A DNA stretch of 64,000 nucleotides from a bacterium. GTDB taxonomy: Bacteria > Armatimonadota > Fimbriimonadia > Fimbriimonadales > Fimbriimonadaceae. Position numbers and translations under genes: made by a program. The notes below the pieces were generated by a model. That model searched no databases. It had not been told where the DNA came from and worked only from the letters and a program-made list of their open reading frames with translations. Shown one piece after another: positions 15,024-17,924 of this stretch. Position 1 is the stretch's first letter. Each line of letters starts with the position of its first letter. Location: the NCBI GenBank assembly GCA_027483535.1, contig JAIXUN010000002.1:1984001-2048000 (forward strand), written 5' to 3'.

Positions 15024-16154
15024 TTACATCCGGTGCGCGCCCGCCGAGGGTTTGCAGATGAGCGCCGAGCCGGGTAGCCCTGTTTGCTCGACATACCGAG
15101 CGACAACCTCATCGCAGAAAGCCTGAGCCTGATCCGCCTCCACAAGCGCCACGCACGACCCACCGAAGCCCGCGCCTGTCATTCGAGCTCCTACGCAGCC
15201 TGGCGTCGACCAAGCGGTCTCTGCCATCGCGTCCAATTCCGCAGACGATACTTCGTAATCCAAACGAAGGCTCTGGTGGCTGCCGTGCATCAATGCCCCG
15301 ATCGCTTCTCGATTGCCTTCATCGAGAGCGGTTCGGAACTCGAGGGTTCGATTGTTCTCGGTAACCACGTGCTTGGCTCGCTTGAACACGTTCTCGAGCA
15401 TCGCCCCCTTGTGGCTGAGAACCATCTCCAAGGTCGCATCTCGGAGTTGGGGAACGCCCAGAATTCGGCAAGCCTCCTCGCACTCGGCTCGGCGCACGTT
15501 ATAAGCCGAACCCGCCAACTCGCGAGACTTCTTGGTGTCGAGCAAGACAATGGCGAGGTCGGATGGGATCGAAGCCGGAACGATCTCCAGGGTCCGCGTA
15601 TCCATGAAGATAGCTCCCCCTTCAACGCCACAAGCAGACGCCATTTGGTCCATGATGCCGCAGTTCACGCCAACGTACAGGTTCTCGCACCGTTGACCTA
15701 GAATCGCTAAACCTTTAGAGGGAATCGAAGCTCCTCCTGCCTCAAGAAAGGCCAACCCGAGCGCCATTTCAATCGCCGCGCTGGAACTCACCCCGCTGCC
15801 GAGCGGCAGGTTGCTGGTGATGGTGGCGTTGATATTGGGAACTTCGTTAATGAAATCTCGAAGCACCCACGCCATACCCGCGCCGAACTTCGACCAATCC
15901 TTCACATCGCCGGGCATCACCGACCTGGCATCGAACGCGGTGCCTTCTCCAAGCTGATCGGAGAGGAGCGTAGTGACCCCGTCCGCACGTCCACCTGCTA
16001 ACCAAACTCCCTTGTCGATCGCCGCCGGAAAGACAAAGCCACCGTTGTAATCGGTGTGCTCGCCAAGAAGGTTGACTCTGCCCGGAGCAAAGATCACCCA
16101 TTCGGGTTCGGCCGCAAAGCGATCTTGGTAGAGGTCTCGGGCGTGATCAAACAT
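15024..16154 (-). CDS. galK: Galactokinase
   Basis: A 376-residue GHMP kinase that phosphorylates galactose at C1 in the Leloir pathway. The galactokinase signature PGRVNLLGEHTDYNGGFVFP is at about residues 21-40. The ATP-binding GHMP motif LPLGSGVSSSAAIEMALG is near 115, the catalytic Asp lies in NCGIMDQMAS, and motif 3 is RMTGAGFGGSCVALVE near 320. ATG at 16154 is chosen because AGGA precedes it; an upstream in-frame ATG adds 14 unlikely residues. No galT or galE is adjacent. It is divergent from the structured region ahead of the M20 peptidase gene. Confidence 0.95.
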   Translation of the reverse strand: MFDHARDLYQDRFAAEPEWVIFAPGRVNLLGEHTDYNGGFVFPAAIDKGVWLAGGRADGVTTLLSDQLGEGTAFDARSVMPGDVKDWSKFGAGMAWVLRDFINEVPNINATITSNLPLGSGVSSSAAIEMALGLAFLEAGGASIPSKGLAILGQRCENLYVGVNCGIMDQMASACGVEGGAIFMDTRTLEIVPASIPSDLAIVLLDTKKSRELAGSAYNVRRAECEEACRILGVPQLRDATLEMVLSHKGAMLENVFKRAKHVVTENNRTLEFRTALDEGNREAIGALMHGSHQSLRLDYEVSSAELDAMAETAWSTPGCVGARMTGAGFGGSCVALVEADQAQAFCDEVVARYVEQTGLPGSALICKPSAGAHRM

Positions 16155-16230
16155 AGGTCCTGTTTTTACCTTCCACATTGGGTGAAGCGTGTCCATAGCT
16201 TCGCAACAGGTGTTTTTGCTTCAAGAACCG

Positions 16231-16440
16231 GATAGGCGTTCCTATCCTCCTGAAAATCCTTCGCAGAAAGAATGCGTCCCAGGGAGGATGCTTCCTAGTG
16301 AGAATGCTGGGATACGAGCATGCAAGCGAAATTACCAGGGTCAACCCGGTGAAGTTACGGAACTCTACCGGTGAGCGTCGTGGGGGTTCTCAACCAGCCG
16401 CCTGAACTTCCCACGCGTTCAAACTTCGGAGGCAACTCCG
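16231..16440 (+). ncRNA. Possible structured RNA or leader upstream of the M20 peptidase gene
   Basis: The 345-base gap between galK and the peptidase gene carries a run of perfect or near-perfect hairpins: GATAGG-cgtt-CCTATC (16231-16246), CGCA/TGCG (16262-16276), a two-tier stem TCCC/GGGA enclosing AGGGAG/CTTCCT (16277-16311), ACCaGGG-tcaa-CCCGGT (16334-16350) and CGGAG-gcaa-CTCCG with a GNRA-type loop (16427-16440). CCGGT at 16346-16350 can instead pair with ACCGG at 16367-16371, giving mutually exclusive folds. It matches no riboswitch, RNase P, tmRNA, SRP or 6S consensus I know. Strand is assumed from the downstream gene. No terminator T-run is seen. Confidence 0.4.
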
Positions 16441-16499
16441 GAGGATCATAACAACGACTTGAGGCGGCAAAGTTGGCAACAGAGCGGTAACCTTCGGTC

Positions 16500-17924
16500 A
16501 TGAGTGCCGAAGGCATCGCCGCTTTGAAAAGTCATCCCGACATCATTGCGATCCAGCAATGGCTTGTCGAACATGAGTCGGAACTGTTAGATCAGACCCG
16601 CAAACTTCTTCGATTCAACACCATCGAAGGCGACCCCGAACCCAATGCTCCCTACGGCAAGGGCAATCGTGAAGCCCTGGATTTCTGCTTGCAACTCGCC
16701 AAAGAAGCGGGTTGGGAAACGGTAGACCTGGAAGGTCATCTCGGTTACGCCACCTTCGGCAAGGGCGATCGTTTGGTGATGGCGCTCGGTCACATCGACG
16801 TCGTGCCCGTCTCTCCTGACTGGAAGCACGATCCGTTCGGGGCAGAGATCGACGGCGAGTACATCTACGCTCGCGGAACGACGGACGATAAGGGTCCGAC
16901 CATGGCGGCTTGGTTCGCGATGCGGGCCATTCAATCCATCAAGCCGGAATTATCTGCCCGACTCCGAATGGCCTTCGGATGCAACGAAGAGAGCGGTTTC
17001 GGATGCGTGGAGAGATACGTTCAAACCGAAGAGGCTCCGACCTTTGGTGTTGCCCCCGACAGCGGTTGGCCTTGCTACAACGCAGAGAAAGGAATTGCCA
17101 ACTTGGAGCTTTCGGTGAGAGTCCCGTCCGGCGAGTTTCGACTCGTCGAGTTCGTCGGCGGAAGCCGACCGAACATCGTGATCGACCGCATCGACTTTGC
17201 GGTAGAGGCGGATGGCGCTGCACTCGAGTTGTTGAAAACCGCCGTTGCCGATAACTGGGACAAGAATCTTGTTCTCACGCTTGAGGGTGGCAAACTCCGA
17301 GGCGTCGCTCATGGCAAGGCCGCTCACGGAAGCACCCCGTTCATGGGCGATTCTGCCGCTACTCGAGCGGTTCGGTTCCTTCTAGCTTCGTGCCCGCTCG
17401 ATCAAAAGGAGTTTTATGAGAACCTCCTGATGGCAACTCACCCAAGTGGCGTGGGACTAGGCATTCATGGTCGAGACGACGTTGCTGGCGACCTCACCGC
17501 CAACGTTGGCATCTGCTCGCTCACCGGAGACAAGCTGGACATTCTGGTGAACGTTCGCTATCCGGTGAAGTGGACCGGGGCGCATCTGGAAGAGCTCTGC
17601 CGAACCAAACTCACCGCACTTGGCGAGCACTGGCAACTCGAAGTTTCTCGAGATAGCGCACCGCTCTACTTCCCTTCGGAGCACCCGATGGTCAAAACGA
17701 TCATCGATGTTTACGAGGCCGAGACGGGCGAGCGGCGCAGTCCGGGCGCAATGGGCGGCGGAACCTACGCACGAGCGGTTCCGAATACGATCTCCATCGG
17801 AACGGGCTGGATCGGCGACGGTGATGCCCACGAAAACGACGAACGGATCGCCATTCAGAGCCTGTTCCGGATGTCGCGCATTTACGCCCACATCCTGTAT
17901 CGACTGGCAACGATGGACGCCTAA
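16500..17924 (+). CDS. M20 family metallopeptidase (PepV-like dipeptidase)
   Basis: A 474-residue zinc peptidase. The first metal histidine is in MALGHIDVVPVSPDW (near residue 99), the bridging Asp in YARGTTDDKGP (near 124), the catalytic/metal Glu pair in GCNEESGFG (near 162), and the last metal His in GDGDAHENDERI near the C-terminus. The long insert between catalytic halves and total length fit the Xaa-His dipeptidase/PepV (Sapep) group, which cleaves small peptides. Cytoplasmic: no signal peptide. ATG 16500 is preceded by the structured 250-base region, which could be its leader. It is convergent with mpl. Confidence 0.92.
   Translation: MSAEGIAALKSHPDIIAIQQWLVEHESELLDQTRKLLRFNTIEGDPEPNAPYGKGNREALDFCLQLAKEAGWETVDLEGHLGYATFGKGDRLVMALGHIDVVPVSPDWKHDPFGAEIDGEYIYARGTTDDKGPTMAAWFAMRAIQSIKPELSARLRMAFGCNEESGFGCVERYVQTEEAPTFGVAPDSGWPCYNAEKGIANLELSVRVPSGEFRLVEFVGGSRPNIVIDRIDFAVEADGAALELLKTAVADNWDKNLVLTLEGGKLRGVAHGKAAHGSTPFMGDSAATRAVRFLLASCPLDQKEFYENLLMATHPSGVGLGIHGRDDVAGDLTANVGICSLTGDKLDILVNVRYPVKWTGAHLEELCRTKLTALGEHWQLEVSRDSAPLYFPSEHPMVKTIIDVYEAETGERRSPGAMGGGTYARAVPNTISIGTGWIGDGDAHENDERIAIQSLFRMSRIYAHILYRLATMDA

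Follow-up and report, generated by a model that had tools for sequence, protein, structure and literature searches.

A conserved RNA hairpin element between galK and an M20 dipeptidase gene of Fimbriimonadaceae, probably a small RNA gene of a motility and surface regulon

The window, a 64,000-nucleotide stretch of a Fimbriimonadaceae genome (GCA_027483535.1, contig JAIXUN010000002.1), contains galK on the minus strand and, divergent from it on the plus strand, a gene for a dipeptidase of the M20/PepV-like Sapep family. The 303-base gap between the two is intergenic, which bears out the non-coding region of the original prediction. The features of the locus are as follows:

15024-16154, minus strand: galK, divergent neighbour of the element
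16317-16428, plus strand: whole covariance-model match
16323-16340, plus strand: block 1, putative promoter (family CYGGTA-N4-TACCRGG(K))
16341-16357, plus strand: spacer
16358-16362, plus strand: block 2, CGGAA (family YGGAA)
16372-16373, plus strand: inferred transcription start at the base of P2
16372-16421, plus strand: hairpin P2, body of the proposed small RNA
16393-16404, plus strand: apical loop ACCAGCCGCCTG (family RCCGCCYG)
16424-16443, plus strand: second strong hairpin, CUUCGGAG-GCAA-CUCCGGAG
16484-16499, plus strand: promoter-like box GGTAACCT, recurring across M20 genes
16500-17924, plus strand: M20/PepV-like dipeptidase gene (PF01546, TIGR01887)

For galK, an ATG at 16154 suits the relatives better than the mechanically assigned start at 16196 and is presumably the true start. 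The box at 16484-16499 abuts the M20 ATG at 16500, giving a leaderless-type start, and in most genomes that ATG is preceded by GGTAACCT, GGTAAAGT or AAGTAAACT at a distance of 6-12 nt, including in some genomes that lack the element described below. Promoter-like GGTANNNT boxes lie 6-12 nt before the start codons of both galK and M20 (window; L003-L075), and this placement suggests that leaderless mRNAs occur in Fimbriimonadales.

The plus strand of 16150-16520 folds better than 100 of 100 dinucleotide shuffles (z = -3.1), while the minus strand does not fold better than all of its shuffles (z = -1.3). Folding piece by piece traces the signal to the hairpins at 16372-16421 (z = -3.8) and 16424-16443 (z = -4.8). 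The upstream hairpins at 16228-16320 together reach z = -1.45, and 15 of 200 shuffles do as well; for the proposed switch region at 16330-16371, the value is z = -0.7 and 48 of 200 shuffles do as well. The row of adjacent hairpins that had been predicted does exist, but conservation is confined to 16372-16421, which also covaries. Neither the two upstream hairpins nor the one at 16424-16443, which has no T tract behind it, was seen in the relatives compared, none of them close; these extra hairpins flank the conserved element and were found only in its own genome. A second claim, that CCGGT can pair with either of two partners (16334-16350 or 16367-16371), holds to the extent that both pairings can be written, while the switching drawn from it does not, as neither partner is kept in relatives. 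The CCGGT/TACCRGG region shows no covariation and hence no conserved, mutually exclusive pairings. Because CCGGT sits in the conserved TACCRGG block and the unconserved spacer of 17-18 nt, the alternative pairing is most likely due to chance.

Searching the window against Rfam 15 gave no real match, in agreement with the earlier statement that the region fits no known RNA family; a single SRP-like match in a permissive search was attributed to chance, and 20 member loci searched at E up to 5 likewise gave no real match. At the DNA level, the window itself was the sole match among 60 related genomes. A protein search located M20 loci in 60 of 61 genomes. Once oriented, the galK-M20 intergenic regions share a common pattern that the DNA search misses. 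Sixteen of these regions were aligned by sequence only and used to build a covariance model, R1, which recovers the element in 55 of 85 genomes of the family (E up to 0.05), as a rule with one strong match each. These matches include genomes outside the training set (G091, 9.4e-11; G066, 3.9e-10; G106, 3.5e-9), and some lie remote from M20 or galK. A refined model, R2, finds the element in 44 of 113 genomes of the order, once per genome, with one marginal match among 178 further genomes of the phylum. The recovered loci span 24 genera at about one strong match per genome, and the match in the window (R1, 4.9e-13; R2, 1.9e-13) is the only one in its genome. The element is shared among Fimbriimonadaceae, including named records such as Fimbriimonas, and also occurs in some related families within the order; none of the Firmicutes M20 loci match it. 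Comparing homologous intergenic regions for compensating base changes, as the original prediction had proposed, recovered a family whose hairpin P2 covaries.

The anatomy of the element was drawn from 44 confident members. P2 has 12 or more pairs; 12 pairs each show changes on both sides, and 87% of the cells are paired. Its covariation score is 0.66, compared with 0.22 for shuffled alignments and at most 0.12 when slid, in an alignment that was fitted to the covariance model and so leans towards it. In single-sequence folds of the 16 regions aligned by sequence only, P2 appears in nearly all, and when every pair of columns is scored without restriction, the seven strongest fall in P2. Substitutions in the stem give G-U in 71 cells against A-C in 8, which marks the plus strand as the folded RNA; a conserved structure on one strand is what would be expected of a bacterial small regulatory RNA with a gene of its own. 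The apical loop (columns 94-105 of alignment A3) has a mean pairwise identity of 0.83, and RCCGCCYG, with which it ends, is likely the contact site. A T tract follows P2 in 17 of the 44 members, the window not among them, and an A tract precedes it in 11 of 44. Three further structures were considered and dropped. In a pseudoknot of CRGG with the loop CCYG, suggested by RNAalifold, the columns are constant and the single variable pair does not covary, and neither a CCR/YGG stem nor an RNA hairpin formed by the block-1 palindrome shows convincing covariation.

The 5' blocks are of a different nature. Block 1 occupies columns 7-24 of A3 and reaches up to 1.7 bits; in the window its right half, TACCAGGG, is intact and its left half (CAAGCG) is degenerate. 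The spacer behind it has a fixed length of 17-18 nt and a mean pairwise identity of 26%, the chance level. In YGGAA, both G residues and the last A are invariant in 44 of 44 members, and about 10 unconserved nt separate it from a Y/R step at the base of P2, with a pyrimidine in 43 of the 44 members followed by a purine in all 44. The blocks covary neither with each other nor with the loop. Weaker R1 and R2 matches consist of the 5' blocks without P2; the genes behind them encode flagellin, type IV pilins and two ATPases, one of PilB/GspE type and one of ExeA type. The arrangement also turned up before a flagellin gene (G000:C4:520221) when the genome of the window was searched with a pattern. 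The putative promoters of the element and of flagellin and pilin genes agree up to the step at 16372-16373 and diverge after it. R3, a model built from sequence alone, was trained on those element promoters that have no link to pilins; it matches upstream of flagellin, PilZ, CheC-like and PilB-like genes (names from reading translations), each match being weak individually. Over 40 flagellin upstream regions, the mean forward score is 8.1 against -0.7 for shuffled sequences (p = 9e-6), with a best score of 30.1 compared with a training mean of 28.4, and the sites mostly lie 130-160 nt before the gene. Against their own reverse strand the contrast is weak (p = 0.09), since the motif is half palindromic. 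The element therefore shares its promoter signature with flagellar genes, as a small RNA of the flagellar regulon should.

Given the lack of covariation, the fixed but unconserved spacer and the recurrence without P2 before motility genes, the 5' blocks look like a motility-regulon promoter that would start transcription at the hairpin base. To our knowledge, CYGGTA-N4-TACCRGG / YGGAA is unlike any sigma28, sigma54 or ECF consensus, and it differs from the FliA consensus, TAAA / GCCGATAA. Block 1, which in some members reads TGGCA..TTGCT, was also considered as a sigma54 site and rejected, since its GG-to-GC spacing is 9 rather than 12. A short upstream peptide, with GGAA as ribosome-binding site followed by NTG, was rejected as well: the codon in the start position is frequently TCG, ACG or CCG, and the reading frame is not kept through loops and stems of differing length. 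Separately, a conserved protein of ~70 residues (MLISEAKTLINEFVNVTYSDRNG...; L107, L109, L111) shares the motility-type promoter.

The distribution of the element follows that of flagellin, scored by PF00669. Within the genus, both are present in 10 genomes and both absent from nine, one genome has flagellin alone and none has the element alone. The nine genomes without flagellin (G004, G005, G006, G007, G010, G012, G013, G014 and G019) all lack the element, and the one mismatch, G008, is an 89% complete draft with M20 at a contig edge, in which the element was undetected. Several of the flagellin-less genomes have galK-M20 gaps of 56-98 nt, so in these the element is truly absent. Mapped onto the M20 tree, the flagellin state requires three changes, at least two of them forced by well-supported branches. 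The element has thus been lost with flagella in at least two independent losses in the genus, the behaviour expected of a small RNA of the flagellar regulon. Extra R3 sites also track the presence of the element (p = 0.0016). Order-wide, the association of element and flagellin is weaker (p = 0.004, not corrected for descent), and the exceptions are G032, an 89% complete draft with the element but no flagellin, and family f2, with flagellin but no element.

Several regulators and targets were examined. FliA/WhiG-type sigma factors occur in nearly all genomes overall and, order-wide, are retained in most that lack flagellin, so the presence of sigma28 fails to explain the pattern and sigma28 was dropped as the driver; in flagellin-less genomes, this sigma factor may have another job. 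A CsrA-titrating RNA was likewise discarded: csrA is present in 20 of 20 genus genomes without correlation to the element, and the loop has no GGA. A hairpin with GGA in its loop is the kind of site that CsrA binds, and such a hairpin, GTGGGAAAGGATTCCCAC, lies in a flagellin leader of the window's own genome (L041, G000:C4 near 520221, minus strand), with similar GGGAAAGGATTCCC hairpins before a conserved small protein, MLISEAKTLI..., at L107 and L109. Pairing of the loop with flagellin leaders equals that of shuffled controls. For galK, the pairing energy is -62.8 kcal/mol with the own sequence and -60.3 with shuffled ones, a difference that partly comes from misassigned starts; the duplex comparison of galK and M20 gave no convincing pairing signal, and galK was set aside as a Spot 42-like target.

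Taken together, we regard 16317-16428 on the plus strand as probably a small RNA gene of a motility and surface regulon, belonging to a new small-RNA family in Fimbriimonadales. Of the two possibilities named in the original prediction, the independent small RNA is favoured by its covariation, its strand bias, its single copy and its independence of the neighbouring genes, and the switching leader is not supported, its alternative pairing being unconserved. In the mechanism we propose, a regulator or alternative sigma factor would read CYGGTA-N4-TACCRGG, 17-18 nt and YGGAA, and the same bipartite promoter would also serve motility genes such as those for flagellin and type IV pilin. Transcription, which we infer, would begin at the Y/R step and yield an RNA at least about 50 nt long, with a single stable hairpin displaying RCCGCCYG. 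In ~40% of genomes, the T-rich tract behind P2 may turn the hairpin into an intrinsic terminator. Action in trans is most likely for the loop, which would pair with G-rich sites in mRNAs or bind a protein, and post-transcriptional control would thereby be coupled to motility. The fullest version of this reading is more tentative: a flagellar and type IV pilus small-RNA family of Armatimonadota, driven by an undescribed motility promoter class under a re-specified sigma factor or other regulator and acting via the invariant CCGCC loop, is possible but less than probable.

The genes around the element bear on the alternatives to the small RNA reading. Its chief competitor is a 5' UTR element or attenuator acting in cis, in which the motility promoter would read through P2 into the next gene and P2 would control that gene by conditional termination or protein binding. 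Most loci have a same-strand gene start within about 130 nt of P2, and many members have no T tract. The fit is best at the pilin loci of families f5 and f3, where the ribosome-binding site lies directly behind P2 and leaves no space for a second promoter. Yet the gene downstream switches while the loop is kept, from M20 in most members of family f1 to a type IV pilin in f5 and f3, a glycosyltransferase in L071 and L092, and sucC in L067. The element persists where M20 is 380-500 nt distant (L057, L058) and where the genes that follow are convergent and prophage-like, with none on the same strand (L064, L066), and M20, the glycosyltransferase and sucC carry their own promoter-like box beside the ATG. 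We therefore consider control in cis unlikely as a general account, though it deserves more weight than the other alternatives. At L064 and L066 (G027 and G100), far from both galK and M20, the element lies between ADP-ribosylglycohydrolase-like and Mu gpT-like prophage genes (names from translations). An amino-acid or dipeptide riboswitch in an M20 leader, the guess made in the original prediction, has in its favour the structured plus strand and the M20 gene downstream in most f1 members, but it is highly improbable. The element is kept in f5, f3 and several f1 genomes that have lost its linkage to M20, so that no one gene or pathway is consistently downstream; M20 starts look leaderless, with a promoter-like box of their own, the switch region folds no better than z = -0.7 with its alternative pairing unconserved, and the 20 members searched match no Rfam riboswitch.

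Two readings dispense with a functional RNA altogether. As a DNA site, the element would form a hairpin that serves in recombination or replication, or would be an operator or terminator of galK working in both directions, and its 5' blocks are palindromic and look DNA-level. The divergent galK is also its usual constant neighbour. It is absent at several loci, however, and 8 of 30 strong members lie away from it; a single copy, the tie to the motility regulon and the strong, strand-specific covariation of P2 also speak against a DNA site, which we judge improbable. Chance-structured intergenic DNA might be suspected from the lack of any DNA-level match in the 60 relatives, but recovery across 24 genera and covariation far above controls refute it for 16317-16428 and leave it very little likelihood there; it may apply to 16197-16316 and 16429-16499.

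If the small RNA reading is correct, Armatimonadota have a conserved small RNA outside the housekeeping set, of a kind that the literature searched does not describe for this phylum; nothing relevant was found on riboswitches in Fimbriimonas, on sRNA in Fimbriimonadales or on noncoding RNA in Armatimonadetes. The element would also provide a promoter motif that can be searched for and that connects the flagellin, pilin and chemotaxis genes of a little-studied phylum, and would show that a motility-linked RNA can adjoin metabolic genes and vanish each time flagella are lost.

Among known systems, Spot 42 RNA of E. coli pairs with galK mRNA, and the likeness is a small RNA connected with galK; here, galK is merely the usual divergent neighbour, without a convincing pairing signal. 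Amino-acid riboswitches and peptidase leaders are also structured intergenic RNAs before metabolic genes, but the element is one hairpin without a conserved multi-helix core, its partner gene is not conserved and its promoter-like sequence is independent. Further parallels, compared by description only, are the flagellar small RNAs. In Campylobacter jejuni, these are CJnc170, which is FliA-dependent, and CJnc230, which is processed from the flgE mRNA (PMC11187230); the likeness is an sRNA tied to the flagellar hierarchy, although in another phylum. In E. coli, UhpU, MotR, FliX and FlgO are sigma28-dependent flagellar sRNAs, UTR-derived and driven by FliA (PMC10578931). The proposed RNA would resemble them in being expressed with the flagellar regulon, while the element differs in having its own promoter-like sequence and in adjoining galK.
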